This document shows, in pieces, positions 18,314 to 63,885 of a stretch of DNA of 64,000 nt. The stretch spans positions 1 to 64,000 of the forward strand of contig VUYT01000028.1 in assembly GCA_008802785.1 (NCBI GenBank), in the 5' to 3' direction. The DNA comes from Symmetrospora coprosmae. Its lineage: Eukaryota; Basidiomycota; Cystobasidiomycetes; Symmetrosporaceae. Numbering within the stretch: position 1 is the stretch's first letter; the number at the start of each line of letters is the position of its first letter. The notes under the pieces are model-generated. The model worked only from the letters and a program-made list of their open reading frames with translations, made no database searches and was not told the DNA's origin. A program made the position numbers and the translations under genes.

Positions 18314-19781
18314 TCATTGACGCAGCAGGATCTTGAAGGCCTTGCGCAGATTTATCCTGCCTTCACCAGGGATGCCCGCTTCCCTCTGATGGTGTGCAGC
18401 GTGAGGGACAAGGATGCAGGGCCGAGATCAGCGGGAGGTGGCCTGCCAGGTGATCCTGGGAGAGATAAACTTACTGCGTCGTCGTGGCAGGCAGACACCC
18501 AATCCGCATTCCTTGTAGTTTGCAAGAACCGTCTCCTGCGACACACCCAGCTTATCAAGGGTAGCCTGGCACGAAACCAAGCTCTGGACAGCGGCAGTGG
18601 AGGCGTGGCCAGATACATCTGAGGCAGGAGCGGTGGGCTCGGCGGCTCGGTGTGTCTTCGAGGTGCTGCAGCCTTCCCCGCTGGCTCTCTTGCTGCGGGG
18701 GCCGCCAGAATCTCCCGGAAGCGTCCGCTCGGATGACTCTGACGCAGACCACTTGCGCTTCCTGCCAAAGACGCCCGCTTCTAGAGAAGCATCGACGAGG
18801 GGCCGAGGCAGACCTCTCGACTGATCTGCCTCTGGGCTCTCTCGCTTGACCGTCGGCTTTGACGAGGTCTTGGGTTCAGCTTTCGGAAGCCGCGCTCCCG
18901 CTTCTGGCCCGCTGACGAACTCGATGTCCGAGTCTTCCGAATCGCTCGAGGTGTCTTGCGCGGTCAAGGGAGACTCGGAGGCGCGCAGCGGGTGCCCGCT
19001 GAGTGCGCTTGTCGGCTTCTTCTTCGTGACGGGGCCTTGTCCGCCCTCGCTATTATCCTCCTCATCCTGGCTGCTTTTGCCGCTGTCGGTACTGTCTGCG
19101 CTACCATCGCCCTGGCTGTTGGCCTTCTTTGCCTTAGGCTGAGGCCGACCTCTACTGGGCGCACTGCACGGACAGACGGAATGCGTCCAATCAGCACCCT
19201 TTCGATCACTGCGGCTATCGAGATCCGCATGACTTACTAGTGAGCGGCGTCAGCCTCCTCGATAGCTTTGATGAAGAGCGCCAGATCGGCACCGTGCAGT
19301 TTCTCACACTTTCCGAGCTTGAAGTGGCGGAAGGCCACATGCGCGTGAATGGTGTCATCCCTGTAGGCTGTCTTGCTGCAGAAGCGGCACTGGTAGCCTT
19401 TGCTCGCCGTGCTGACAGACCTGCGTGTAGACCACGCCATCAGATCTACCGTCGACACAAGCAGTACTATGCGCCCGCTCGTAGAGTTCTCCCTCTGTAG
19501 CCCTTGTTACGAAGGCCTTGACGGAGCACGTACAGCTTTTCCATGCGTGAGCCCTTCTTATACGCTGCTCCGGTCTTTACAACGTAGCTCCGCAACGGCC
19601 TCGAGAAGTCATAGATCGGTGGTGCCAAGGCCTTCACAGCCGCTTCGCCATTCTGTAGCTGTAGCCTTGTGGTGCTCCATAGCTTGAAGGGAATCACGTC
19701 CCCGTGGGCTGAATAGGCTAGTTGGCCTGCCAGGAGATCAGCATTGGGTTTAGACTGGGATGCCGTGTGGGAGTTGGCCAT
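18314..19781 (-). CDS. Novel CCHC zinc-finger family member, one module
   Basis: Exons 19534-19781, 19238-19420 and 18475-19163 are well supported. The last exon probably runs 18314-18360, giving 388 aa, though its acceptor is ambiguous. The N-terminal half-module is LLAGQLAYSAHGDVIPFKLW ... LRSYVVKTG ... RMEKL. After a phase-2 intron comes GYQCRFCSKT-(x16)-FRHF-(x4)-C-(x5)-GADLALFIKAIEEAD, a CxxC...H...C pattern that could bind zinc. Then comes a disordered acidic/basic linker with an AT-hook-like SRGRPQPK, an acidic DSEDSDIEF and a basic FGRKRKW stretch, which suggests a nuclear protein. The tail has LVSCQATLDKLGVSQETV and RINLRKAFKILLRQ, related to the tails of the genes at 28204 and 30758. 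I do not recognise the family and assign no function. Confidence 0.75.
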
Positions 19782-20681
19782 TGCTCTATAGACTCGATCT
19801 TCGGCGCAGGGTGGATTCGGGAAAGAGGTGAGAGCGGTAAACGATGATGGAAGGGGCGCGCAGCCTATGTCTGAGCAAAGGTGAGGAAAGAATAGCGTGA
19901 TGACGCAGTGATGGAGAGGGGCTATGTTGTACTGACGCTGGAGATGCTCGACAGAAGTTCGACCTGCGGAAAGAATTGGAGCAGAGGAGAGAGGTGAGTC
20001 CAAGATGGAGGGAGGCACAGGGTTCCGCAACGAACGCACAGACCTCACGCCTGGATTAGCTCGGACAGCGCGGAGGAAGAGCGGAGAAGTCGACGGAGAA
20101 GGACGAGCAGGGCGGGCAGGGCGGTACGAAGCGGTCAGTGACGTCACTGTCAACATACCTCGAGGTGAGCACATCTCCTGCTCAGGCACAATTAGAATTG
20201 GCCTTGCGGTTCCTTTGCCTCGCCGACCTTCTGGTGCGGCACCCATACCTCCCAGTCTACACGGACACTCGCACTTTGGCTGTTGGGCAGCTTACCGCCC
20301 ATTTCGGCCCATCTTTTGCCCGCTGACAGAAGGTTCTGCTCTCGTCTACATCGCACGTCTGACTGACAGTCCGCTCGCAGCGCCGTCCACTCCGCCTGTG
20401 CGCCTATTCTTCCGCCCGGGTGGAGGAGGTGACATACTTCTTTTGAGCGATTCTACACCTGTAGTCTGCCTGATGCTCGAAAAGCCGGAGCTCGCGTGAT
20501 GGTGAATGGTGCAGGAGCGGCGTGATGGGCGTCCTTAGCCTATCTACCGAGCTCAGCATGCGCGGCTCGCAGGTCAACGCCTCGGAGTTGCCGCTGGGCA
20601 AGACGGCTCGACCTGCCGGACCTGTGAAGCTCCTGCCAGCGCTGCCACGACGCAGCATACTGGGACTGCGCCCGAGGATCT
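19782..20681. other. 900-bp intergenic region with a possible small gene
   Basis: The space lies between the start of the zinc-finger gene and the end of the membrane-protein gene, both on the minus strand. It should hold the zinc-finger promoter near 19.8-20.1 kb. On the plus strand, frames from about 20138 to 20499 have some coding-like character and are listed separately at low confidence. Otherwise I see nothing. Confidence 0.4.
20138..20499 (+). CDS. Possible small protein gene (weak)
   Basis: One frame reads MTSLSTYLE, then LELALRFLCLADLLVRHPYL, up to 20326. Another, ending at 20499, reads LVYIARLTDS ... VRLFFRPGGGGDILLLSDST ... LMLEKPEL. Candidate introns could join them, but I found no combination that kept frame convincingly. 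The second segment loosely resembles the last beta strands of roadblock/LC7-type proteins. That resemblance is too weak to name it. Confidence 0.2.
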
Positions 20682-21964
20682 TCAGTCGGCCTTGATGTGC
20701 CCTGTCTCTGCCTGCAACCAGTCCTCCCTCCACGCCAAGACGAGACCGATGCTCGCAGCGCTGCCCAGCGTGGGCGTGAGGCCGACGGCGGTAACCGCTG
20801 CGAGCGCCTTCCTTCCCGATATTCTGCCTCCACGCCAGAACGCCCATATCTCTAGCGCAGCCCAAGTCTGCCAGATGGCGTTCGTGCAGATGACATCCCA
20901 CGAGATGCTGCTCTGCGCCGGGTAGCTCTGCACCGTCTCCTGGAGTGTCTCCGCGAGCCAGCGCAGCGAGAAGCGCGGGTGCGCGAGCAGGGCCAGCGAG
21001 TGCTTGGCCTGCAGGGCGAGCGAGAGGCCCGCGACGGCGAGGTAGAGCGGCTTGAAGGATGCGGGGGAGTCGTGCTTGCCTGCGAGCGCGGAGGACATGC
21101 TCGGAAAGCGGGAATGGCGCAGGCGATGCGAAGCGTGCGTCTGCATCCGGTCCTCGTTCGTGCTGTCTGACGGGCGCCGCGCGACCTGCACGAGCGGCAG
21201 GAGGATGACTGCGTGCATCGCGAGGAGGTTGGGCAGGAACGGCAGGCCGTACGCGCCCGTGCCGCTCAGAGTGCTGGGCACCAGCGCGATGGTGAGGAAA
21301 GCGAGCAGGATGCTTCCTTCGAGTAGACGGGTCGGACCCGAGGCTGTGTGACCTGCGATGCGTACAGAGCCTGGACGGGCCTTGTTTGCGAAGGTGACAG
21401 CCGGCAGAGAGAGTAGAGCGAGAAAGAGCGAGGACGCAAAGGAGATGGCGACGATCTGGCCGAGGACCATGTACTGCCAGGCGCTGTCCCGGAGATCTGG
21501 GCGGCGGGAGGCTATCGATACCGTCCATGCATACTGGATCAGCACAGAGCGCTTAGTGACGAGACGATTGGGTGCCGGAACGCACCCTCAGCGAAGAGAA
21601 ATACAGTCCACAGGCCAGTCGTGAATGTACAGAGCTGCGCCGATATCGACCACCGCTCCGGGGTTGCGCAGACGTATCGCCATGCCTGGTCGAAGAGGCT
21701 CGTCTCCTGCAGCCATACTGTGGTCGTGTATGCCGGGCTGCTCCCCGCGCCGAGAAGGGCGTCCGCGTACGAGCGGAAGAGGAAGCGGATCATGTGCGTC
21801 CATGTGAGGAGGAGCGAGACGAACGCGAGGAGCAGGAAGAGGACGGAGCGGGCTGAATAGGGAGCTGGACGGGGCAGGAGGTGGATGGAGAGGGCGGTGA
21901 CGGCGATGAGGTAGAGGACGAGGGGTGAATGCTGGAGCATGTCGTTGGCCGTCATGTTCGGCAT
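20682..21964 (-). CDS. Multispanning membrane protein of unknown function
   Basis: Two exons (21586-21964, 20682-21511) around a 74-nt intron give 402 aa. The acceptor at 21512 was chosen because it keeps frame. About eight or nine hydrophobic segments are visible, including SPLVLYLIAVTALSIHLLPR, VLFLLLAFVSLLLTWTHMIR, LGQIVAISFASSLFLALLSL, LLEGSILLAFLTIALV, LLAMHAVILLPLVQ and LYLAVAGLSLALQ. A soluble segment with TTTVWLQETSLFDQAWRYVC and TPERWSISAQLCTFTTGLWT precedes one helix. The layout recalls uncharacterised fungal membrane proteins, but I cannot name a family. It shares a 318-bp divergent promoter with the Dpb4-like gene. Confidence 0.7.
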
Positions 21965-22282
21965 TGCGGTCGTTAACGGGGCCACGGGGAGCGAGCTCCC
22001 AGGGTGTGAGAAGCTCCAGATGTTGGAAGGCTCTATGTATTGGCTGAATGAACAGATGCTGCCGGGATCGACAGAATAGAGTGCCAGTCCCGGTATCGCT
22101 GCCGCCGCTATGTGTCCCAGCTGGAATGCATGAGCTGTGGCTCGAGACCAGATGCGAAGGACGAGACGGGGAGAGAGAGACGCGCCGCGGTCCTGGATGA
22201 TGCATGATGGTCGCATACTGCACTTTCCCTCGACACAATCTCGTTCCAAGGACAGTCAGCTGCACACATACACCACTCCGCA
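21965..22282. promoter_or_regulatory. Divergent promoter, membrane protein / Dpb4-like
   Basis: 318 bp between outward-facing ATGs. No TATA box or other clear element seen. Confidence 0.45.
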
Positions 22283-23662
22283 ATGTCATCTGCTGCTGCT
22301 GCTCCTGCCATGGGCACCTCCGCCCTCGACTCCATCGACGTTGATGTCGACCTCCTCGACACGAGCACCGGACCAAACGGTATTGCAGCATACGAGCTGC
22401 CCAGGAGCAAAGGTGCGCATTGCACACGTTCGCCATCTGGGCCAAGCTGCATCCCCCGACTGATCATTCGTGCTCTATGCAGTCCTCAAGCTCGCAAAAG
22501 CATCGGTGCGTCCTCGCTCCTCATGACCAAGAACTGGCCATACTCGATGCATCCCCGTCCCCTGAGCTGATTCTGACTTCTGCACACCTGCTCTGATATT
22601 GATGCTATGCCGGTACTACCGCATCGACAGCTCCCACCCACGGTAAAGATGCGTGAGTCGCGAGCTCGAGGTGCTCGAGACGGGAAGGACGCGTCGACAT
22701 CGATGGATGCGGCCCGCCGCTGACATTGGGCATCCACCGACCATACGCGCGCAGAGAAGGAGATTGCGCCTGCCATCACGCGCGCAAGCAGCGTGTTCAT
22801 CAGCTATCTCGCGACCCTGTGCGTGCCTCCATCTCGCGTCTCCACCGCATCCAGAGGCGCCATGCGCTGACTCTTTGCCCTCTATCGATGCAACCCCAGC
22901 GCACACGAGTCTGCACTCGAGCGAGGAGTCAAGACCGTCACGGCTGAGGATGTCCTCGATGCGCTCGACGCGCTCGACTGGGGCGAGGGCGACACGGAGC
23001 GGATACGCAAGGATCTCAAGAGGCATCTCCGGGGTGCGTCTATCTTCTCTCTTCTCCCTGGCCCTTGCCGGGGCAGAGGGCAATACTATAGCATCCGACA
23101 TGCACGCCGCTGACGGCCTGCATGCGTGCCACGCCCAACCTGCTCACGGACAGCCTACCGCGCCAATGCAAAAGCCAAGAAAGCCGGAAAGCCCTTGCCG
23201 TACCCTGCTGACACGCCCGAACACCCCATGGCACTGTCCCCGGACGCGCGACCGGGCACGACAGCAAGCTCTGCAGCGAGAGCCGTCGCCGGAGCAGCCG
23301 GCGAGAGCGCGCCAGAGGTTGCCGTCGTGCTCAACAAGGGCAAAGCACGCGCGCTGCCCGCCGTCGAAGGCGGAGAGGCGGATGATGCCGATGAGGCGGA
23401 AGCTGGGGCGACGCTGCTCCGAAACGATCTGGACGGCGAGGACGAGGCAGATGCGGATGTGGCAGACGAAGGGGAGGAATCGCCCGTCGACGAAGAAGAA
23501 GACGAGGATGAGCCTGAAGCGGGCGGCGAAGATGACGACGAGGAGGAGGAACAAGAGCCGGATGAGCCCGATGACGGCTTGCTGCAGGATGAGACTCTCG
23601 ATCAAGCCGGGTCAGACCGTAGTCTCGAAGGCGGGAGCGATCAAGACATGGAGGAGGACTAG
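22283..23662 (+). CDS. DPB4: DNA polymerase epsilon subunit Dpb4 / POLE3-like histone-fold protein
   Basis: Six exons (22283-22412, 22483-22505, 22631-22652, 22755-22818, 22900-23033, 23154-23662) give 293 aa with consistent phases. Two exons are only 23 and 22 nt. The spliced histone fold reads AAYELPRSKVLKLAKASLPP, then TVKMQKEIAPAITRASSVFI, SYLATLAHESALERGVKTVT and AEDVLDALDALDWGEGD. This order matches Dpb4/POLE3, which pairs with Dpb3 in polymerase epsilon and with chromatin remodelling complexes (family knowledge). After KAKKAGKPLPY comes a disordered tail of about 150 residues, strongly acidic near its end and much longer than the short acidic tail of yeast or human members. CENP- or NF-Y-type folds are less likely because of the ELP...KL.KAS signature. 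Confidence 0.85.
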
Positions 23663-23923
23663 GCCGGACACGATGCGATCTTTTCGCACGGCCCACCAGT
23701 TGAGGCCGAGCTTAAAATGTGATGCAACGCGAGCACGGTCCAACACGTCCCATATCGGGCAGTCTCTCTCATATTGCACGGTCTCTCTACGTATATGTCA
23801 TCGCTCCGTCTTTTTCGCTACCACATCACTGGTCTCAGCCGACCTTCTCTCCTGCTCCTGCTAAAGGCTATCTAGCTGGTGCTCCGCAATCTGCGCGACG
23901 GTCCGCGGTCGCTTTGCTTGAAT

Positions 23924-25842
23924 CTAGAGCTCGTCGGCAATGCGCTGGGTGACGCTCGCGGCCGCGCTGCTGACCTTGCTGGCGATGCTCGTGGCCGACG
24001 CGTATCCCTCGGACGTGGCCGAGTCGACGCTAGCGGAGGCCTGGCTGGCGGCGCTGACTGCGCTCTTGCTGGCGCCGGACGCAGCGCTGCTGACGCTAGC
24101 GCTTGCACCCGAGGCGGCTGCGTACGCCTGGTCGACGTAGTCAGCCGCAGCCCCAGATGCAGACGACGCGGCGCTGTATCCGGCATTCGAGGCGGACGAG
24201 GCCGACTTGCTGGCGGCCTTGGACGCGGAGGAAGCCGAGGCCGACGCGAGCTTGGACGCCGACGACGCGGACGCAGCTGCGATCTTGGAAGCGGACGATG
24301 CGGACGCGGCGGCGACCTTGCTGGCGGACGAGGCCGACTTGCCAGCGCTCGCAGTGACCGAAGATGCAGCGCTTCCGGCGGCAGCGTACGCGCTCGAGCC
24401 AGAAGCGGCAGCGGCGTTGCCTGCGGACTGGGCAGCGCCGGACACGGCGGAGGCCGCGGAGACGACCGAGCCAGATACGGCTGACGCGGCCGAAGCGACA
24501 GAGGCGGAGACGCCAGACGCAGCGGAGGCGGCTGAGCCGGAGACGCCAGAGGCAGCAGAGGCGGCCGAGCCAGAAAGGCTGGACGCGGAAGAAGCGCTGC
24601 CAGTCACTGCGGCCGCGACGCGAGACGTGGCCGAGTCTACCGACGCGCTCGCCTCGGAGACAATGCTGCTTGCGCTGGCTCTGGCCGCCGTAAAGGCTGC
24701 GAGGATGTTCTGGCGCATCTGGAGGTCGTCGAGCTGCTTGCCTGCCATGGTGCCTCGCTTGCTGCTGAGCTTCTGCAAGCGCGCAAGCTCGGTCTGGGCC
24801 CACTCGACATTCGTGTTGAGCTTCTCCATGACGCGCAGGTAGTACGACGCGCCCGCGCTCGAGGCTTCCGATGCCGCAGAGCTGGCAGACTTGGATGGCG
24901 TGAGGGAGGCGGCGAGCTCGCGAGCCTGCGATAGGATCGAGTCACGGGCATCGGTCGAAGTTGCCAGGAAGCTGGCGGCGAGGGCATCAAGGGACGGGAC
25001 ACGGCCGGCCTGGCGTGCATTCGCAAATGCGTCAGTCTAGGTCTGCTACTCGACGACAGAGAGCGGAGACTGCGCACGAGCTGGTTGAGGAGACCGCCGG
25101 CGGTTCGGTGGGTCCCGGCGTGGTTGTTGATGTACTCGATGAAAGCCTCCTCAGTCCTGGCTGACTGGTAGTCGAGGGGTGCGGATCCGTCAGCGGGGAA
25201 GAACTGAGGGGCAATAAATGCATCCTATCAGTCTGTGTTCCTTGGCTGCCGTCCAAGCGGAAACGGGCCGCACCTTCAGCGTTGGGTAGCCCTTTACGCC
25301 GAATCGCGAGGCCACGGGACGGTTGTCGGCATTGTCAGCGTCGACCTGGGCGATGAGGACACCCTCCTCGTCCTTGAAATCCTGAGCAAGCTTCTCCCAT
25401 GTTGGCTCGAGGGATTCTGCGCGAGCAAGCTGTCAGCCTTTGCGGACCCGAAGCGGTTGGTCATCGGTGATGTCAGACTGGGCGGCGGGAAGAGACTCAC
25501 TGCAGTGGCCGCACCTGGACCGCGATGGAGAGACGGGCAGAATGAATGTTGGAGGGTGTCAGTCCTGTGCGGTCCGTTTCCCCCTCGCCATGTCCCTGTG
25601 CCTATCCCTGCGCCTGTCCAGCCCTCATGCCGCCGCCGGCCAGGACTGCCGGTGCATCGCAGGCCGATACTCTCGAGAACTCACCAAGGCGCGTAGAAGG
25701 CGACGAGGGATGCTTTGCCCTTGATGGCGCTGTCGAACGTCTGTGCAGTCAAGTGCTTGCCCGTCTTTACGTCCTCGAGCCCGGCATAGACTGCAGAGAT
25801 GCACGAGGTCGCGATGACCAGGAACGAGGTGGTGAATCGCAT
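23924..25842 (-). CDS. ER protein disulfide isomerase (Erp38-like) with Ala/Ser hendecad tail and ADEL
   Basis: Five exons (25685-25842, 25501-25514, 25274-25416, 25078-25203, 23924-25036) give 517 aa. A signal peptide (MRFTTSFLVIATSCISAVYA) precedes one thioredoxin domain with [20 protein letters not shown] and FGVKGYPTLKFFPADG. A helical ERp29-C-like domain follows (FANARQAGRVPSLDALAASF ... YLRVMEKLNTNVEWAQTELA ... LDDLQMRQNILAAF). This matches fungal one-thioredoxin PDIs. The remaining ~210 residues are almost pure Ala/Ser/Gly/Val in 11-residue repeats, ending in RIADEL, a likely ER-retrieval signal (ADEL). The 14-nt exon 2 encodes just the CGHC active site. Intron 4 is only 41 nt. Confidence 0.88.
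24170..24680 (-). repeat. 33-bp/11-residue Ala-Ser repeat array in the PDI tail
   Basis: At protein level one block has units GSAASAASGVS, GSAASAASGVS, ASVASAASAVS and GSVVSAASAVS. A second has ASSASKVAAAS, ASSASKIAAAS, ASSASKLASAS and ASSASKAASKS. At least eight to nine 11-residue units are recognisable, corresponding to 33-bp repeats that have drifted in sequence. Unlike CCGTCT-type arrays, the frame is kept throughout. Confidence 0.85.
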
Positions 25843-26249
25843 CTGGCGTGGGGAGGACAGGAAGCGCGAGTGAGTTCCAATGGACTGAGCGCAGGGGCAG
25901 ACTGTCGATGTACTCACCGTTGGCTGCGAGGTTGTTCTGGATACGGTGTTGGAGCAGGTCGAAGGGGACAGGGGAGGAAGATCAGCGTCTTGCGCGCCCC
26001 CACCCGGTGTGACGTGGTGAGCCAGGGAGGAAAGCAAGGGTGGCAGTGACAACGACAGCGGGTAGGGCGGGGAGAGCGTGTGCTTCATACTTGCGATGCG
26101 GGTGTGCCCTTCATTCCTCTGATGACCCATCTGCCTGTTGCCTGTTACCTGTTACCTGTTGCATCTTCCAGCGCCTCGCCGGCCCGCCTGCTGAGATCCA
26201 ATGCTGCGACCACTTCGCTCTCACGCATCCACATTTCCCAACCGCAAGC
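25843..26249. promoter_or_regulatory. Divergent promoter, PDI / CCNDBP1-like, with short tandem repeat
   Basis: A 407-bp space lies between outward-facing genes. It contains a small tandem repeat at about 26131-26162 (units CCTGTTGC/CCTGTTAC, about four copies). I looked for an obvious unfolded-protein-response element but cannot assert one. Confidence 0.45.
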
Positions 26250-27721
26250 ATGCCTCGAGGAGCTCAGGCGAAAGCGGCAAAGGCAAGAGCAAGAGCGAAA
26301 GCATCTGCTTCTGCTTCTGCTTCTTCGTCGAGCTCAGCTGCAGCCACGGCCATGTCGCCTGCAGCGGCAAAGGGAAAAGGTGTGAGCCTCTCCTGCTCAC
26401 CCACCGCTATTGCAGCGCCTGTGGGCTGGGCTGAAGCAATTCGCATGGAACAACAGAACCCGCACTGCGGAGCTTGTACGAGTTCTCCGAGATGCTCTCG
26501 CAGACGAGCGCCTCTCTCCCCGCCGTTTCGTCCGACCTGGTTGCCAGCAGACCTTCTAGTAAGGACGCGAGCGGCGCCCTCCTCGACATGCATACGTTGT
26601 TCGCCCAGCTTTCGAGCGAGGTGACGGCCCTCTCGCTGGCTCTGGCACCCCCGAGCGAGTCCTGGGACGCCGTCACGGCCACTTGCGGCAAGCTGCAGAC
26701 GACATGCGGCAAGACTCTCTACTGCCTGGGCGTCCTGCGCCAGCCTCCAGCCGCATCCTCGAGCGCGAAGAGACCCGCCGAGCCGCTCCTGGGCCAGCAG
26801 TACCGCAACGCCGTCACCTCCGTCTTTGACGCGCTGGAATCGATGATCTCCGAGTGCCTGATGTCGTACACGGACGCCCGCCTCGTGCAGAACAAGGGCA
26901 AGATCCGCCCGCAGGACCGCCAGCAGATCCTGAACTGCACGTCCGTCGTCTGGAAGATGGTCGAGTGGACCACAAAGTTTCCGCGAACAGAGGAGGAGGC
27001 GTTTGAGCGCGCGTGGAAGGACGTGCTCGAGACGGCCGAGGACTCGATGGACGAGGTAGACACCCTGCTCGCGAGGGGATCGGTGGACGACAGGGGCGAG
27101 GTCCGGCATCGGACACTGGGTACTTTTGACGACGAGGAGGCGGAGGACGAGGACAGTGCCGGAGAGGAAGGAGGAGCGCACCAGGGTGAATACTACGACG
27201 ATGTAGACCGGGCGCACTCGCTCGCCGGCCAGCTGGAGGACGATCTCTGGGGCGACGATGGCAACGACAGCAGCCCGATCAACAAGGTCGAGTACGAGAC
27301 GATACAAGCTGCGCACGCCCTCTTAATGCTTGGGCAGTCCCTCATGAAACGCGTCCCTGCTGTCATCGCTGCCCGCCCTGGCCTCCCACTCGCGGCACTC
27401 AACAGCATCGCGCAGGACCTACTCGCAGCGCAGGACGAGCTCGTGTGCCAGCTCACTCCGGAAATCGATCCGGCCGAGGTAGAGCTCATGACGGAAAGCT
27501 ACGCGGAGAAGGCGCAGGAGCTCGTGTCACTCCTGCTGGGCGGGAGATCCGGGGTGGACGATCTGACGGACGGCTTGAGCGGGCTGTCCGTGCTCGGGGT
27601 AAAGATAGGGACGCCCGCTTCTGAACCCGACTCGGACGATATCAAGTGGTTGGCAGACTTTGCAGGACAACTAGAACGGGCGGCAACCGCGGTGAAGGAG
27701 AAGTGCGCTACGCAGGGGTAG
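26250..27721 (+). CDS. Cyclin-D1-binding protein 1-like (GCIP family)
   Basis: Two exons (26250-26379, 26457-27721) around a 77-nt intron give 464 aa. The N-terminus is Ala/Lys/Ser-rich (KAAKARARAKASASASASSS). The GCIP-like helical domain begins at PALRSLYEFSEMLSQTSASL. It includes LYCLGVLRQPP, YRNAVTSVFDALESMISECL, QDRQQILNCTSVVWKMVEWT and AFERAWKDVLETAEDSMDEV. An acidic insert (DDEEAEDEDSAGEEGG) follows, then a second helical part (AAHALLMLGQSLMKRVPAVI). This matches fungal CCNDBP1-like proteins. Animal members bind cyclin D1 and HLH factors; the fungal role is unknown to me. Confidence 0.8.
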
Positions 27722-28203
27722 TAGTCTGAAAGGGGTGGACTGACGTTGTCGAAGCGTGTACGTACATGACCCTGCAACGAGAAGACAGCAGAAGCGCGAA
27801 GCATGCAAAGTCGGCTCTGCGGAGCGTACCGCGTTACCCGCTAAACCTTTTTCGCTCCGTCGTCTTCTGACCCATTCTTCCGCTTCTTCTCTTTCTGGGG
27901 CTACAGGAGCAGAGGCAACTTTAGTGCGATCGGGTCCCTCCTCGCTCTCGCTTCCCAGTCTCTCCTTCTCTTCTACTATCTCGTTTCTCTGCATCTCACT
28001 ACACGACCCCCATTATATCAGATCTGGGACCCTTCGCCTCCCTTCCGCTACAGTCTACGCAAGGCGAAGCAGAGTGTGTTCTGCCTCCCGTCAGCTCCTA
28101 CCCTCCGCTCGCTCGTGAGAGCCCCTTACGAAGCGTCGTGGAACATCCGCTTCTGGCGTGGTCGAAGCCCCTCCGCCACTCCTCCCTTCGTCCAAAGCGA
28201 AAG
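27722..28203. other. Intergenic region, pyrimidine-rich promoter of the two-module gene
   Basis: 482 bp with a C/T-rich plus strand between about 27845 and 28000 and an AT-rich CATTATATCA at 28011-28020, which could serve as a TATA-like element. A minus-strand open frame here (27671-27994) mirrors the pyrimidine tract and is probably not a gene. Confidence 0.5.
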
Positions 28204-30320
28204 ATGCAGACCAGACACGGCCGGGTCCCCGACATATTCGACGGTCAGCTCGCATACTCGGACAAGCAGGAAGAGGTCCCGTTCAAGCAGTGGAGCGAAA
28301 CTCGGCGACAGCTCGCTGACCCGAACTTAGCTCCAACGGATGCTTTGGCTCCACGAACAACGTCGGCATCCACCTACCTCAGAAGCTACTTTGTATGCGT
28401 GGGCGTCGTGCATACCTATGGTAAAACGAAGATGGAGCCCCTGTGAGCGTGCGTGCCTGTCGTTCGGAACAAGGCGGGCGCTGAGCATACTAGGTCCCCT
28501 CTGTACGACAGAGCACCCCACCACAGTCACAAGTGGAACGAGAAAGGAACCTGGTGTCGCTTCTGCAACGGCAGGGTACGAGCTATCGCTGCTTTCAATA
28601 AGGATAGTGCCTACGCCCATTTCTGGAGGGAAGCGTGTCCTGGTCTGCGCGGGGATGACCTCAACGTCTTCATCCAGGCCATCAGGAAAGCGGACTTTGC
28701 AGGGCGGTGAGACATCACTCCAAGATGACCCGATGATCTCCGCTTCGAGCTGACTTGTCACTCCGTCCGCGCTCTGCAGCTATCCTGCGCGTGCAGACTT
28801 GGGTACCCCGGAGGGCAGAGCAGCAGCCGCAGCCGTCAGGACCGCAGCCGTCAGGACTACAGCCGGCAGGACTGCAGCTGGCAGGGATTCCGCCGGCAGA
28901 AAGACAAGGCCGATGACTCGGAGGAAGATTCATGCGACGAGAGCGAAGACGAGTCTGTACCCGATGCGCTCAGGGACCCAGCTCTTCGACGGGCATACCA
29001 CGCCACTCCCGCTCGCAACAACCTCCTGTTAGGGCAGAAAGCTCTCATCTGGAGACCAGATAGCAGCAGGGATGTGCGATTGTGGGAGCTACAGGCAGTG
29101 AAGGCCTGGGATCAGACGAAAGCGGAATTGGCAGCAGGCAAGCCTACCAGAGAAGCCCTGTGCGAGAAGTTCGGTGACGACTGGTCCTACTTGCAGTCAT
29201 ACACCATCGACCATGATCGCGTCGGACCGCATGAGAAGTACAAGTCCCACGTTTGCTGCATGTAAGTAAGCTGGCTTGGCGCGGAATTCCAAAGCGTACC
29301 GGAGAAAGACTGACCTGCAGTCGATGTTTCCGCTCGATTCGTAGCAACTCGTGCGACGGGCAGCCTCATCCTTGCGGATGGTACTGCCGCTTCTGCCAGA
29401 CTCGCTACAGCACGAAGTGGACCTTCCACTTTTCTCGCTTCTTTGAGCATATCAGCGACTACAGGTGCCCGGTCCTGCCGAGAGCCGACGTGGTCATCCT
29501 GGTCGAAACCATCAAGGAAGTCGATGCCCACTTCTTCAATCCGAGCGGCAGCCCTCAGTCCCCTTCTTGTCGCAGGGAGACGAGCTCAGAGAACGTTGGT
29601 GAATCGTCCGGGGCAGCCAAGTCTGGCACGCATTCGGAGAGGCAGAATGAGATTACGGCCACATCTAGCAATGTCGCAAGGCCCGCAAATCGGAACCCGG
29701 GATGCGCATTAGAGGGTTCCGAATCGGACGACTCCATCCCCTCGTTGTCGGTCGGGCGAGCCGCGTCTACCCAGCGAGACTTGTCCGAGGATGTCGAGAT
29801 GTCGGGATCGCCAGCGGACGGAAAGCTCTCGGCCACAACCGGCAAGAAGCGCAAGCGAGAGGACTCAGATCAACGTGGTGGCTCCGCTCAGGGCCCGAGC
29901 GGTGCACTTTCGAGCGGAGCCGGCAGAACCGCAGTCCGCAAGGGTTCGGTTGCCAGCAGCACACCCTCTAGCAACGGTACGATCAGACCTGCCCTGGAAG
30001 GCGGGGCACCAGCAAACCAGCCAGCCGCACAAGTAGAATACGATCCTTTGGCTTCCGTTCAAGCCAGCCTCGATAAGCTGAACATGTCGAAAGACGTCGT
30101 CCGAGCCAAGTGCACGGATCAAGAGTGGATCGACAACTTCGATGAAGTCCACCGTCACGTACGTGATTCAAGCTGGACGCTCGCCTTGTCAATTGCACTC
30201 GCTGATGCGGATTCCTCCGGTGTCTGCACGGACTTATGCTGTTTGCTGCTTCAGGATCTCGATCCCTACGAGAGGATCGATCTACGCATGGCTCTCAAGA
30301 ATCTCCTCAAGCGACGATGA
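28204..30320 (+). CDS. Novel CCHC zinc-finger family member, two modules
   Basis: Five exons (28204-28442, 28512-28706, 28797-29261, 29321-30158, 30255-30320) give 600 aa. Module 1 is FDGQLAYSDKQEEVPFKQW ... YLRSYFV ... KMEPL, a phase-2 intron, then TWCRFC ... HFWREACPGLRGDDLNVFIQ AIRKADF. A linker with SRQD repeats and an acidic DDSEEDSCDESEDE follows. Module 2 is more diverged: LLLGQKALIW ... YLQSYTIDHDRVG, a phase-2 intron, then GWYCRFCQTRY ... FEHISDYRCPVLPRADVVIL VETIKEVD. The remainder is disordered with a KKRKRED nuclear-type motif. It ends in a tail (SVQASLDKLNMSKDVV ... ERIDLRMALKNLLKRR) that may be SAM-like. The next gene downstream is a tandem relative. Function unknown. Confidence 0.78.
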
Positions 30321-30757
30321 CCTCGCCAAAGAGTTCAGCCCCTCGACGTCAGGGATCGCAAGGTCACTCCATTGTGCCTATTCGCCTTCTGTTGCGGGGG
30401 ATAGCAAAGCAGATATTCGTGCAAGCTCTCCTGTCATGTTGCGGATAATCCGTCTGAACGCAGCTGTGCACTACTGTAACGCGCTCCTTCGCTGAGAATG
30501 ACCATACATATGTCACGAACAGATGAGGTGCTCGGCTGTTGCTGACCGCTCTGTACTATAGTGCTTTGGGATGTCGCGCGCAATTGCGGGGCATGTCATC
30601 TGTTTGGCACCCCTGTCCGCACATTCTCCGTCTCCGTCGAAATTTCTGGGGCGACCCGTTGTGCGGTGTGTTGTTTTGTTCGCACCATCTGCACACACCT
30701 AAGTACGCTCGTACGTAGCTCAACGCGTTGCCGTAAGATCGCTAAGATCGCTTCGCC
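30321..30757. other. Intergenic region between the two tandem family genes
   Basis: 437 bp on the same strand as both neighbours. No gene, TATA box or long repeat seen. Confidence 0.5.
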
Positions 30758-33240
30758 ATGAGCTGGCCTTGGGCGACGCGACCCCAGGGCAGGGGCGCGT
30801 TTTCGAGTGGCGGTGGGGGAGGACCCAGTCGCCAGCATGGCAACGGCAGCAGCACCAACGGTACAGGCATGAGCACAAGCATCAGTAAGACTCCGACACC
30901 ATCCTCAGCCCAGTCAACGTCGAGGAAGACGCAGGCTGCATCCACGTCCAGCGGAAAGAGGAAGAAGAAGAAACGGCCTGTCCAGGGCGAAGACCGCTTC
31001 GAGGGTCAGCTGGCCTACTCTGTCGGCGGAGAGAAGGCACCGTTCAAGCCATTCGCAACGAGTGCGTCTGCTCCTGGTGCGCATTGTGTCGCCTAACCGT
31101 GACTGATGCATCGTGTTGCCAGCCCTCAGACAGCTCCGAGCAGGCGTCCCGCCCAAGAACGCTCTCGCTCCCCTCATCACGCCCCGCTCGCGCTACACTC
31201 GGAGTTACTTTGTCCAGTATGGCGGAAGGGAGATGTACAGCTCGGTGGTGGAGAGGCTGTGAGCCGGATTTCGCTATTTCGTCGGCCTTGAAGGTTCCTT
31301 GACCGGCTTCGCATTCGCCATCCCCACAGATCATTCCGCTTCAAGGCTGGCGTCCATGACGAAGGCTACTACTGCCGTTTCTGCGAGAACAGGATCCCCG
31401 GCGACAAGACATTCCGTGTCCTGGACTACGCGGCTCACTTCACCGGCGGGGGCTGTCCCGCCCTGACTGGGCCCGACCTCGAGACTTTCGTCACCGCGCT
31501 GCGAGAAGTGGATCCAACGACCACCCAGGAGCTAGAGCATGAGCGGGCTGCGCGAAAGCATCAGGAGTGTGTACTTTCGGCTTTTCCCGCTTGGAGGTCC
31601 CCAGCAGTCAGACTGAGCACGGCTCTTGCGCCTTTCAGAGCGGAGCAGAGCAAGACTCCAAAGCGAGCGCGAGCGCACCATGCAGGTGGCGATGACGACG
31701 GCAGCGACTACGATTCGGACTCGGAAAGCGAGTCTTCCGGTAGCTCCGAAGACAGCGATGACAGTTGCGTCGCGGGCCCCGTGGCATCCACCTCCGCCTC
31801 CGCCTCGCAGAGCTGGCAGAGCTGGCAGGTCCCGCAGTCCCTGATGACCTCCAGTCAGCCTCCAACAAGTCTGGACCCACTCGCGGGCCAGATAGCTCGC
31901 ATCTCGAATCGCACCGGCGGCATTGGAAGCCCGATGATCTATACAGACGAGCCACTGAAGCTGCTATCCGAAACCTTGCGAGAGCTCAGGGGAGGTGCCC
32001 AGCCCGACACTGCTCTGACTGCTCGTATATCACTCAGCGCTTCCAGGCTGAGAGGCTACTACATCGACCTCGACGATATCGCTGACGACAACGCTGACCA
32101 TTCCGGCTGCCTGTGAGTACATGACCCGGATACCAAGACCGTTGCGGCGCCGTTTGCTATCGGGACAACGCTCATCTTCTTGCTCTTCCTTTCACGCAAC
32201 AGCGACTCTTGCGATCGTCAGCCTCATGAGTTCGGCCTATATTGCCGTCTCTGCTTCCATCTCATTTCCATTTCACCCTCTGTAGCTTATCGCCTTCAGT
32301 GGCGACACTTCCGCGGCGGCTTCTGCTCGGCCCTTAGCGGTGCCGACCTCGAGCTCTTCCTTCTAGCCATTCAAGAGGTCGATAAGAGATTCTGCGCGAA
32401 GCTGGAGGAGGCGGGAGAGCTGAAGAAGATACATTGGAGGACAGGAAAGCCCAAGAAGAAGCGTACTCGCACCGGGCCAGGCGTTGTTGCAGGAAGGGCG
32501 GAGCAAGGATATCTGGCGCCTGCAAGCGAACTCACTCCATCCATCGACCCGTCAACCTCGGCTGCGCCACTCCCCACTAGTATGTCTTTAAAGCTTGCAC
32601 AGCAAGGAGCGGGTGCATCAACTCGCCAGATGGACCTGACATACGGGCCCGATGATGACGACGAAGACGATAGCGACCAAGACCTCGACATTGAGGAGAG
32701 CTTCTTCGGCTACAACACCATGCTGCGAGCCGCCACGCCGGTTAAGGAAGCCGAGAAGGCGGTCGTTATCGCCTCGCTTCCTTCGCCTTTCCGCGTGAAG
32801 AAGCAGAGTCCGGACGGTGACGCCCTTTTCAGCACCTCGCAGCAAATCTCTGGTGGACAGTCTCTTTCGATGGCGAAAGCGGCCCTGAAGGCTCCGAAGG
32901 CCGTCATCAGCGACCTTGCCTCCACCTTGCCCGCACCGGTCGTCCCCTACGCTACCATCCTTGAGGCCTCCGGCATTAGCACAAATGAGGACTTCGAAGG
33001 TCTGCGAGGAATGATACTCAGCCAGGCAGATCTTGACGGCTTCCTGGCGAGCGTCTACTCGGTAAGTCTTGCCCCTTTTTGCCGTACGACAACGAAGGCG
33101 TCAAATTGACGCTTGTCATTCTGGCTCTCCCGCTGCTTATGATATGCACGTTCCAGGATCATGAGAAGAGTCTGTCTCTCACAACCATCAAGAAGTTCGG
33201 TCTTCGTCAGAGCCTCATCAAAGCGCTCGGGCTGGCCTGA
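30758..33240 (+). CDS. Novel CCHC zinc-finger family member, two modules
   Basis: Six exons (30758-31061, 31123-31258, 31330-31566, 31639-32112, 32203-33061, 33157-33240) give 697 aa. A Gly/Ser-rich start with KRKKKKRP leads to module 1: RFEGQLAYSVGGEKAPFKPF ... YTRSYFVQYGG ... VVERL, a phase-2 intron, then YYCRFCENR ... AAHFTGGGCPALTGPDLETF VTALREVD. An acidic DSDSESESSGSSEDSDD linker follows. Module 2 is PLAGQIARIS ... LRGYYID, a phase-2 intron, then LYCRLC ... WRHFRGGFCSALSGADLELF LLAIQEVD. A basic GKPKKKRTRTG and acidic DDDDEDDSDQDLD follow. The tail (TILEASGISTNEDF ... TTIKKFGLRQSLIK ALGLA) resembles SAM-type ends. It carries one more phase-1 intron within module 1 than the gene at 28204. 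Function unknown. Confidence 0.78.
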
Positions 33241-59052: not shown

Positions 59053-62000
59053 ATGCTCGGATTCCTCAGGCAACCGCGCCGTCCACCCGAGGAGCACACT
59101 GCAACTGTCGCTGTCGCTGCCGCGGCTGCCCCGTACAGCCGGGTGACGCTCCTGGCGCTGGTCACCATGGCAGCGCTCATCGCGGTCAATGTGCAGATGC
59201 ACACGCCCTTCAAGCGCACGTATGACCCGTCAATTCCTTCATCGGCCGCAGGTGTCGCCTACGAAGAGCACCAATGGGCGCCTGCCGCTCTTCACAGGCC
59301 GGTACTGATCCGGAAACGCCACCATCACCCTCAACACTCCCGAGCAGCGTCTTCGAGAGAGAACGGCTATCCACATGTCACGGACATGCCGACACGAACG
59401 ACGCAGGCCCTCATTCGCAGGCAGGGTCAGTCGAGCTCCCCAGTCGCTGACCGACGATTGTCTGTGGAGGCAGAGCTGACGCGATGAAAGGGACATGTAT
59501 ACTGATATGCTCTACATCCTCGAACTCCTCAGCAGATCCCAATACCCCAGTCAGTCCCGTCGAGACGCCAAACAGCAATCAGAGTCCTGCCGGCGAGTCT
59601 ACAGTCGCGACCGACAGCGGGACTGGCCAGTCGTCTGTGGTATCAGACACGGCAAACGGTCAGCCTACCTCGACTGTGACCGACACCGCCTCGGCGGACG
59701 CCGCCGCCGCTTCGTCCCTCTCCGCCGCTTCCGCTTCCTCCCTGGCTGCGGCTCAGTCCTCGCTTAACAACCCTCAACAAGGCGTAGTGGACTCTCTGGC
59801 TCTTTCGAGCGGTATCTCGGGGGGCGACACAACGACCCAGCCTGTCACAGGCGGCGATACCACGACACAGCCTATCGCCAATTCTAGCGGTGGCGGTAGT
59901 GCTGTGCCATCGGTGACCACTGGCGCCGATGGGATCGTTACAACACAGCAGGCAACGGAGCCTGTCACCTCGGGGACGCCCGGTAGCGTGACGCCAGGCA
60001 GCGTGACGCCCGGCAGTGTGACGCCTTCTGTGGTGACCGGCGCGGACGGGCTGCCTACAACGCAGCCGGCAGGCGGTGATGCGACAACACAGCCAGCAGG
60101 CGGTAATACGACAACACAGCCAGCAGGCGGTGATACGACAACACAGCCAGTAGGTGGCAGCCCAACTCAGCCCAGCGCGAATCCTAGCGATGGTCATGTC
60201 ACGCCACAGCAATCGACGGACCCCGTCACGCCTTCCGTGACCACGGGCGCCAACGGCGTGGTGACGAGCTTGCAGCCGACCGCACCGGCGAGCTCGGGCG
60301 ATAGCAGCTTGAACAGCAACAGCAACCTCAACAGCAACAGCAATAGCAACGGCAGCACCCAGCCCTCTGCCGTGGTGAGCGACCCCTCAAGCGGAGTGGG
60401 TGTAGAAAGTACTCTATCGCCATCGATGGTCAACACAGATGTGCAGGGCGGGACCACTTCACCTGTCACGGGTTCAAACGGCGTCGTGACGACTGTGCAG
60501 CCGTCGCAAGCTCCGAGCGTCGTGGGCGGTACCACTTCGCCAGTCCCTGCAACCGGTGGCGGCACCACGACGGTCAAGCCGAGCGACCCTGCTAGCGTGG
60601 GCGGACCCGGTAGTCTCAGCGACAATGTTCCAGAAGGGAATAGCGCAACGAGCGGCGGTCTCTCGAGCAATGTTGACGGGGTGCCCTCGCAGAACAGCGG
60701 TCAGCCCAGCGGGCTGCCCAGCAGCGGCCAAACAGCAACCGACACCAAGACACCCGACACCGCCGGTACTGCAGACGCCACCACCACTCGATCGCCAGAT
60801 AGCGCGTCTGGCATCCCATCAGGCAACCCCACCACCTCGCCACAGACTCCGCCGAGTGGTGACTCCGTAACGCGGACTCAGACGCCAGACAGCAATGAGT
60901 CTGGTTCACTTTCGTCGGTTGCCAACACGAAGACGCCAGACGGACTCCCGAGCAACGGGACACCCACCGAGACGCGCACGCCAAATGACAGCGGCCTCCT
61001 TTCACAGACCGCTACACAAACCGATTCGCCGCGAGAGCCCAGCTCGCTGGAAAGTGCGACCGCGACGCGTACGCCAAATGCAGCGCCCTCAAGTCTGTCG
61101 TCCGTCGGCACCACTAGCAGCCCGAGGGAGCCAAGCGGGCTGAGCAGTGCTACGGAGACGCGCACGCCGAGCAAGACGCCGGATGAGCTTTCGTCTGTTG
61201 GCAGTACGAGCACGCCGGAGGAGCCCGTCTCATCCATAAGCGCGACGAGCACACGGACGCCTGACACCGATCCCATCTCGTCGGTCTCCGCCAGCTCGAC
61301 AAGGACGCCTAGCAGTGATCCGCTCTCCTCTATCTCGGCTAGTTCAACAAGAACCCCGGACAGCGATCCGCTGTCGTCGATATCAGCTAGCTCGACGAGG
61401 ACACCTGATAGCGACCCGCTTTCTTCGATATCAGCTACCTCAACCAGGACGCCGGATCCTACTCCATCGCTCTCGTCTCTGAGCAGCAAGCCGCCCGACT
61501 CCTCACTGGAATCATCCCGTCCACCCGCGACGGCTAGACCCACCGAAGAGTCATCTCTGTCCAGCCTGCCGAGTTCCTCGACAACAAGGACGGAATGTGC
61601 GTGACTGTACTCATGTTAAGTATGACGTCCTCCGCGGAGCTCTGCTTACGCTTGCTCTCCACAACAGCTACCAAGCCGAGCACGACAAGCAGCCTGCCGT
61701 CGTACATCGAGTCTGCCCTTTCTTCATCCTCTGATGATGAAGACGGTAGCAGCTCTCCTTCAGGCCTACCGTCATCCTCTGCTAGTAGACCGAGCACCTC
61801 CAGCTCGCCTCCGCCTACTCAATCTCTACCGCGACCTATCGAGACTTCCAGCTTGTTGACAGCCACGCCTACCACTACTGAGGACGACTTCGAGTCAAGT
61901 ACGGCCGAAGAGACACCATCCACAGCAAGCTCGGCCAAGCCGACCACATCGACCGAGTGAGTCTGTGTCTGACTGCATTGAATGGAAATGGATCGCTAAC

Positions 62001-63885
62001 CAGCCCCGCTCGGATGTCAGCCCTTACGAATGGGTTCCATCGAGCACGCTCCTCTCCAATCCCGTCAAGGAGACCAGCAAGTCTTCCAGTGACGCGTTGT
62101 CTACAACAGACACGGCCGCTACAGACAACCAAGAGCCAACGAAGTCGAGCTCTGGCTCGTCCAGCTTGGCGTCCAGCACGACGTCTGCTTCGCTTCCTTC
62201 TGACTGGCCCAGCAAGATTGTGCCGCAGCAAGCAGCAGATCCTCCTGAGACTGACGACAAGGACGAAGAGGGCTTCGATGCGGGTGCGACTAGTGATGCA
62301 GATGCTCCGCCCGCGGGAATGGTCCCTGGAGCAGAAGTCGAGCACCCGGCAGACTCGACGCTCATATCGATACTCCTCACGTCGGCACTCTCGTGGTCTT
62401 GGCTACTGGCCCAGAGCGATGCCTCGGCTCAAGTCTTCGCATATATGCCTCAGCTCATTGCGGAGGCCCTCGATATCGACCGATCTCAGGTCACGACTGA
62501 CAGTCTCGAAGCTTGGGAACCGCCTGGATGGCAAGGAGCAGGCGCTGACATGTCGGTGCCTGTCTTGTCGTCCGACTCTTTGCTTGCGCAAGCTGACATC
62601 CTTCCTTGACAGCCGCTCGGTCTGGCTTGGCTATATACCCACGCTTCAGGTCGATCCTCTGGCAGCCCTGATTGTCAACCGGTCCAGCGTCTTCTACCAC
62701 AGCAAGAGGGAACTGACAAAGCAGCTAGCAGGCAGTGTCGACCCAGTCCTTCCGATATTATCCTTCTACGGCCTCACAGCAGAGCAGGAGGACGCCACGG
62801 GAGGCAATGGCGGAGCTGCGGCACAGGAGACTGCGACTTTGAGCAACAAGAAGACCGCCCTCATCGCTTCCGCCGCCGCGCTGGGCGCCATCATCTTGGG
62901 TGTGGGCGGCTTCTTTGCCTCGCGATATGCCATGAGGAAGCGCAAGGAGTTCAAGCACAGTCAGCAAGGAGGCAGCCAGGGCTATGGCGGGGACGATGAC
63001 GGGGAGGATATGCAGGAGACCGCTCGAGGTATACAGCCGGGCTTCCAGCCGCTCGTCCTTCCGCCTAATCGCTACCTGAACCCGCCCAAGTCGCCAGAGG
63101 ACCCCGACCCGGAAGGACAGGAGGATGCACTGGATCGGGACTCGCTCTCGCGATATCCCGTAACAGAGCGGCACCAGACGGAGGATTTCTACAACAGTGC
63201 GCCTGCCGCCAGCTTTACGAACGAGAGCTCTATGCCGATGCCAGTCCCGATGTCTGTGCCGGTACCAGTGCCTATGCCAATCCCGGCGGATGCGCTCATG
63301 GCGACTCCGAGCCGAGGGGACGATGGTCGACAGTTATTCGATACTGGACCGCTGTCACCGCCGGTGCCAGATTCAGCCTATCCCTTCCCTCATCAGCGCC
63401 CAAGCCCGGGCCCGGCTCAGCACCCGCAGTCGAGCGCGTTTTACCCCATGTCTTCCACGCCAGGAGCCAACTCGCCGCCTGTGAACCAGTCCTACCTAGA
63501 CACCGTCCGCTCCGGCTCCGGCAGCTCGGTACAATCCGAGATGCTGCACACACGACGACGCGTCTCGAGCATGGATATCCCCATCCGCAATACGTGGTGG
63601 AAGCATCAATCGCAGTGGGAGAACCCGACGCAGGGTCAAGGGGCGAGTAGCGGCTCGCCGCCTCTGCCTGCGCTTCCGCCGCAGTCGCAGCCGCTACAAC
63701 CACTGCCGTCCTACCTCCGCGAGAGCCGACCGTACTCGGGCTCGTCGACCTACTCGACGCTGCGCAACTTTAACGGACCGCCTGGTTTCCCGAGCAGCCA
63801 GCCCGGCACGCTGAAAAGAGGGCATAGGAGGACATCAACCAAAATCTCGACGCCGTTTCTGCAGGACAATTCGCTGATGCTGTAG
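59053..63885 (+). CDS. MSB2: Msb2/Hkr1-type signalling mucin
   Basis: Five exons (59053-59425, 59533-61596, 61668-61956, 62021-~62569, 62613-63885) give about 1515 aa. An N-terminal hydrophobic segment (VTLLALVTMAALIAVNV) is a signal anchor. About 850 residues of Ser/Thr/Pro-rich mucin with tandem repeats follow. The HMH-like domain then appears: AQVFAYMPQLIAEALDIDRS QVTTDSLEAWEP, and across an intron LGYIPTLQVDPLAALIV. One membrane helix (ALIASAAALGAIILGVGGFF) and a ~320-residue cytosolic tail follow. This order matches fungal Msb2, a surface sensor feeding MAPK pathways for filamentation or host recognition (family knowledge). The donor of the last intron (near 62556-62570) is uncertain. 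Confidence 0.83.
60000..60165 (+). repeat. Short in-frame tandem repeats in the mucin domain
   Basis: Three GSVTP units are followed by TTTQPAGGD/N units of about 27 bp (three to four copies). They are almost identical at DNA level, so they are young and likely to vary in number between strains. Confidence 0.85.
61240..61455 (+). repeat. 48-bp tandem repeats in the mucin domain
   Basis: Units of 16 residues of the type SSISASSTRTPDSDPL occur about four times, with synonymous drift between copies. This is older than the 27-bp array upstream. Confidence 0.85.

Follow-up and report, generated by a model that had tools for sequence, protein, structure and literature searches.

An expanded, unnamed zinc-finger-type gene family in the basidiomycete Symmetrospora coprosmae

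The first 64,000 nucleotides of contig VUYT01000028.1 (C20 hereafter) of the basidiomycete Symmetrospora coprosmae, the whole stretch referred to here as the window, carry three genes, A, B and C, whose products share a two-part, zinc-finger-like module. The assembly to which this contig belongs (GCA_008802785.1) comprises 20.05 Mb in 77 contigs, with the window at the start of C20. An earlier note on this DNA had proposed a paralogous family of three genes at positions 18314-19781, 28204-30320 and 30758-33240, with one module in the first gene and two in each member of the tandem pair. Spliced gene models and BLASTP comparisons bear out this family, and the models also confirm the distribution of its five copies within the window; genome-wide, the count does not hold, since there are at least 13 genes and at least 16 modules. 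What these genes represent is a real, expanded and unnamed family of the zinc-finger type, whose members also carry a second, uncatalogued domain.

Gene A (18314..19781, minus strand) has a single module followed by a linker with acidic and basic stretches and an RGRP motif. Its first three exons (19781-19534, 19420-19238 and 19163-18475) are sound, and they place the N half of module A1 (GQLAYS..RSYVV) at 19534..19733 and the C half (CRFC-x17-H-x5-C) at 19238..19420, in agreement with the all-vs-all BLASTP. The final exon (about 18385-18314) is uncertain, and the C-terminus of this protein is left undecided because that exon has no in-frame join at the canonical splice site. A frame-shifted ending at 18475-18560 of the minus strand, which looked homologous by eye, reached 1.5 bits against the domain profile, no better than its shuffled versions (best 2.3 bits), and a frameshift is therefore not supported.

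Gene B (28204..30320, plus strand) consists of five exons (28204-28442, 28512-28706, 28797-29261, 29345-30158 and 30255-30320) amounting to 593 codons including the stop. Its module B1 (28234..28706) is interrupted by a 69-nt phase-2 intron (28443-28511), its module B2 (29023..29552) by an 83-nt intron of the same phase (29262-29344), and its C-terminal domain (30036..30320) by a phase-0 intron (30159-30254). The linker contains, at about 28834-28895 of the plus strand, a short tandem repeat that by eye encodes SRQD units. Gene C (30758..33240, plus strand), with acidic stretches in its linkers, has six exons (30758-31061, 31123-31258, 31330-31566, 31639-32112, 32203-33061 and 33157-33240) and 698 codons including the stop. 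Module C1 (30995..31561) is spread across three exons, module C2 (31877..32416) holds a 90-nt phase-2 intron (32113-32202), and the C-terminal domain (32930..33240) again contains a phase-0 intron (33062-33156). Once spliced, B and C have GT-AG introns throughout and no internal stops, and their boundaries are exactly those given by the earlier note.

The five window modules, of 133-150 amino acids each, are clearly related. In an all-vs-all BLASTP with the database size set to 7 million, seven of the eight cross-gene pairs were listed, with E-values from 5e-24 to 2e-7, B1-C2 being the sole pair without a listed match; within genes, C1 and C2 matched at E 1.5e-13 and B1 and B2 at E 0.003. When the two modules of a fourth gene, D, are added, all seven align along their whole length with identities of 26-58%, and of the 18 cross-gene pairs 17 have a listed match with an E-value no higher than 5e-7. 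As a control for chance similarity, a profile of nine modules, the five window copies among them, gave the family exons of the window 45-90 bits, except for the short first-exon fragment of C1 (15.4 bits), and the best non-family piece among 1429 six-frame pieces of the window reached 7.7 bits.

The N half spans about 70 amino acids, with a consensus of roughly GQLAYS..G..PFK...TL..LR.G..P..ALAP......LRSYFV, and the C half reads approximately G.YCR[FL]C..........H[FL]...CP.L.G.DL..F..AI.E.D. When 15 of the 16 modules are aligned (K2 omitted, and K entered without an N half), the five named residues of the core C-R-x-C...H...C never vary, and these include the four positions of a possible CCHC zinc site. 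Directly upstream of this core, eight of the 15 aligned modules (B2, C2, D2, E, H, I, J and L; seen in the spliced reading for E and by eye for H) carry an additional C-x3-C-x4-H. Both of its cysteines are missing from A1, B1, C1 and D1, which we call type 1 as opposed to the type-2 modules B2, C2 and D2, and at least its second cysteine and the histidine are missing from F and G. A phase-2 intron separates the two halves at the same place in all seven modules of A-D, and is found also in E and, by eye, in H; in I, J and L the open frame continues through the site. Predicted introns in the gene models measure 61-113 nt and follow the GT-AG rule with one exception, the first intron of gene D (L008 3852-3923), which separates the halves of D1 and starts with TT where the paralogues have GT. 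The TT could reflect damage to the splice site, an error in the assembly or a donor of an unusual kind.

Outside the window, single-protein searches of the genome itself, followed by a reading of the loci around the matches, brought up ten more genes. Since these searches score only the best candidates, the total of 13 genes is a lower bound. Gene D (C15:251516-253960) has two modules and a C-terminal domain, and shares its contig with H; E lies on C5, F and G stand in tandem on C34, I and J in tandem on C14, C20 holds K at 87.9 kb and K2 at 91.4 kb, and L, on C55, is a single open frame 1768 codons long. A profile of the seven A-D modules recovers E at 5e-10, H at 4e-7, I at 2e-4, G at 0.003 and F at 0.01 (E-values scaled to one million sequences). 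J and L are linked to the family by chains of searches within the genome (E to J 4e-5, J to L 7e-7, H to L 6e-5), and the membership of K and K2 is based on the matches of E to K (0.04) and of K to K2 (0.006) together with the C-terminal domain. Weak module places on C8 and C25 were not counted. Beside gene E (L009 5158-5808, minus strand), a short, degenerate-looking WYCRFC piece and an adjacent open frame look like a decayed further member.

The second domain, of about 65 amino acids, is located at the C-terminus of ten of the 13 genes (B, C, D, E, F, G, I, K, K2 and L). By a profile built from these very sequences, K has two copies, and I has two and by eye a third, in the open frame that follows its module and a CUE domain; gene A gives a partial match of 9.8 bits, and the profile found none in H or J. 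In genes B, C and D the domain is split by a phase-0 intron, which was also read by eye in gene E. An extra place on C3 (E 0.05) was too weak to be counted. The 11 C-terminal domains searched against Pfam gave nothing above the cut-off, and in the PDB profile search the best match was a leucine-rich-repeat protein (E 0.0034), with no single stretch passing. A likeness to the SAM domain, suspected by eye, was dropped, as none of the 11 had a SAM match in Pfam or the PDB. The earlier note had missed this shared domain, the C-x3-C-x4-H of eight copies and the ten genes outside the window.

Between these domains run long, charged linkers with acidic runs and basic motifs. Ten sequences were scanned for motifs (A-D plus exons of E, F, G, I, J and K), and basic motifs of the K[KR]x[KR] type, which we take to be nuclear localization signals (NLS), are present in seven of them: B, C, D and the exons of E, G, I and J. 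Overlapping counts exceed those of shuffled sequences in C (6 against 0.45), B (2 against 0.53) and D (2 against 0.53); A has none, against 0.68 in shuffles. RGRP, presumably an AT-hook, is found in A and F. The acidic and basic linkers with KRKR-type or AT-hook-like motifs that had been described for the window are indeed there, with KKRKR in B, KRKKKKR and KPKKKR in C, and RGRP in A.

A tree of the modules unites the type-1 copies in one clade (support 99/96), within which C1 pairs with D1 (95/93) and B1 with A1 (94/87); B2, C2 and D2 are grouped at 86/85. The simplest reading, with which both this tree and the gene architectures agree, would be a two-module ancestor of A-D, with a subsequent loss of the second module in A. 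Purifying selection between the paralogues is shown by the proportion of non-synonymous differences (pN) being lower than that of synonymous ones (pS) in all five exon pairs compared; the ratio of the corresponding substitution rates (dN/dS) comes to about 0.33-0.45 wherever dS is finite, which holds for three pairs such as C1/D1 (dN 0.34, dS 1.03), the other two being saturated. Within this genome the family is expanded, and its members do cluster: 11 of the 13 lie within 30 kb of another, whereas 20000 simulations of random placement, run with approximate positions, averaged 0.46 and never exceeded 7. This clustering is plainly due to tandem duplication. A four-unit TTAGGG run, looked for as a sign that the clusters lie near telomeres, was not found.

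No described family had been recognised in the module, and the libraries agree: no Pfam family scores above its cut-off, and NCBIfam, searched with the modules, returns nothing. Several Pfam matches that stayed below the cut-off and concerned no more than two members apiece were regarded as chance similarities, among them GNAT (0.0046), Zn_ribbon_12 (0.0096), a phage tail protein (0.016) and HPS6_C (0.14). Against the PDB, even the best match of the N half, a transporter ATPase at E 0.043, is unconvincing. In the protein database, full-length C had no homologue at E 0.001 or better among the best 8000 candidates, which were probably selected by low-complexity words, and none of the 339 candidates for module C1 reached E 1; both searches covered proteins of about 383-1219 amino acids, with exon-sized predictions excluded. 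The query of a third search was a chimera that joined the L module to part of J and to the FAD oxidoreductase gene that adjoins gene C, the last as a built-in control. It returned seven matches, all with the FAD-oxidoreductase domain PF01266 and at most 49% query coverage, including proteins of Cystobasidium minutum (59% identity) and Rhizoctonia (38%); some fungi are thus in the database, and no relative of the module appeared among the best 8000 candidates. These negatives count for little as regards the module because of the length limits and the restriction to the best candidates. The L module had eight and 15 pattern-matching stretches in viral and prokaryotic contigs, respectively, none of which was confirmed, and a literature search of titles and abstract beginnings in an open library found no description of the family.

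The window has a GC content of about 60%, compared with 51-52% for the Cyphobasidium genome (PMC8355462). The surroundings of A, B and C are otherwise ordinary in part: four adjacent open frames belong to known Pfam families, namely a protein kinase, Nup188, GCIP and the FAD oxidoreductase next to gene C, whose C. minutum counterpart comes from another species of the Cystobasidiomycetes (Pucciniomycotina). Further along, at 59451-63885 of the plus strand, long repeats rich in Ser, Thr and Pro precede a single apparent membrane segment, an arrangement that by eye resembles a fungal signalling mucin, and neither of the two open frames there has a Pfam match. From position 11181, a repeat of about 170 bases that translates as HSVSVSV is broken by unknown bases, probably an assembly gap.

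Even though no single reading reaches even odds in our judgement, the one we hold to be the likeliest is that these proteins would be nuclear regulators with a DNA- or chromatin-binding module, forming a family grown by local duplication. The nuclear role is proposed on account of the basic NLS-type and RGRP motifs, that is, from motifs only. A member would consist of one or two modules, each with an N half of about 70 amino acids and a CCHC zinc-finger-like C half, a charged linker and, in ten of the 13, the C-terminal domain. The four cysteine and histidine residues would bind zinc, and the finger would contact DNA or a chromatin partner. Where a type-1 and a type-2 module stand in tandem, the contact may be bipartite, and the C-terminal domain may serve for pairing, either among the proteins themselves or with a partner that they have in common. 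Several observations speak against this proposal. The 15-module alignment includes rows that were pieced together manually; the A-D profile finds K, K2 and J weakly (E 0.4-3.4) and L not significantly; K[KR]x[KR] is absent from A and from the scanned exons of F and K; six of the 11 inner branches of the module tree are open at depth, where long branches meet; and the PDB profile matches of the module are weak and mixed, coming from Nanos, BED and C2H2 fingers.

The foremost competing explanation, less probable than the former and yet of appreciable weight, is that the module serves for interaction with proteins, with RNA or within the ubiquitin pathway, in which case the proteins would be adaptors rather than DNA binders. 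Member I (C14, L012 2399-7115) has a ubiquitin-binding CUE domain above the Pfam cut-off (PF02845, 31.0 bits against 21.1, E 1.9e-7), which would suit roles other than nuclear regulation; this domain was detected in I only, and the basic NLS-type motifs of seven scanned sequences out of ten, with the RGRP of two, argue the other way. Zinc domains often bind proteins, and Nanos, an RNA-binding protein, leads the PDB matches when C halves are used alone (E 0.05 and 0.19). The likeness lies in the CCHC ligands and a CP-L stretch within a weak profile alignment (E 0.05-1.4); the Nanos finger, however, consists of two adjacent CCHC motifs, whereas each module has one CCHC set. The C2H2 transcription factors, which share with the family a small zinc-type unit, NLS-type motifs and local gene duplication, differ in that the fourth position of the module is a cysteine in all 15 aligned copies, with one or two modules per gene, and the best C2H2 Pfam matches (E 0.042 and 0.26) are weak and concern one of 15 members each.

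An improbable alternative would trace the C half, as a diverged form, to the BED finger of a hAT-type transposase domesticated long ago, and would make the family a set of host DNA-binding proteins derived from it. The spacing C-x2-C-x17-H-x5-C resembles that of BED fingers (PF02892), as in ZBED2 or the Hermes transposase, and the ligands, C-x2-C followed by H and C/H, are of the BED type in all 15 aligned modules. BED domains bind DNA, that of Hermes being a CCHC finger with ligands C51, C54, H71 and C73, of similar Cys-His spacing (PMC10368747), and the founders of the BED class act as transcription or chromatin factors (PMC12962474). With the 15-module profile, the ZBED2 finger is the best PDB match (E 0.018), aligned over the zinc core; with seven C halves as the profile it drops to third (E 0.23), with the five from the window to eighth (E 1.4), and the ZBED3 structures, which ZBED2 finds as a query, are not among the matches listed for the module profile. 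The best zf-BED score of the family, in J (E 0.13, 12.8 bits), stays below the curated cut-off of 20.6, and the one place that a zf-BED search of the genome returned (16.2 bits, on C11) is outside the family genes. No transposase domain was found in full-length A-D or in the scanned exons of E, F, G, I, J and K, a scan that did not extend to full-length H, K2 and L. BED fingers have conserved aromatic residues on the N-terminal side of the cysteine pair; in six of the 15 rows (B1, B2, C1, C2, D1 and D2) an aromatic residue, which may or may not occupy the classical BED position, stands directly before the first cysteine. The module differs from BED fingers in its attached N half and, in eight copies, the upstream C-x3-C-x4-H. 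A BED-like finger is therefore possible, and no more, given the weak and mixed PDB profile matches. That part of the set consists of pseudogenes or wrong exon models, as the out-of-frame last exon of A, the TT donor of D and the degenerate piece beside E might suggest, is very improbable in view of the fully open B and C with their GT-AG introns, the lower pN than pS in every pair and the unsupported frameshift of A.

Returning to the nuclear regulators, a bolder version of this reading, which we consider rather doubtful, would see in the module a new zinc-dependent DNA-binding domain, confined to a small group of basidiomycetes and spread there by tandem duplication to give a set of paralogous regulators; in A-D, the first module would have shed the upstream C-x3-C-x4-H and taken a different role from the second. 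As a duplicated zinc-finger family the system is ordinary in kind; its domains are new as far as the searched libraries show. If the proposal of nuclear regulators is true, a whole set of putative regulators in a basidiomycete would be invisible to those domain libraries, and the conserved module would be a handle for finding and testing them, with the paired type-1 and type-2 modules offering a natural comparison between zinc-type sites with and without extra upstream ligands.

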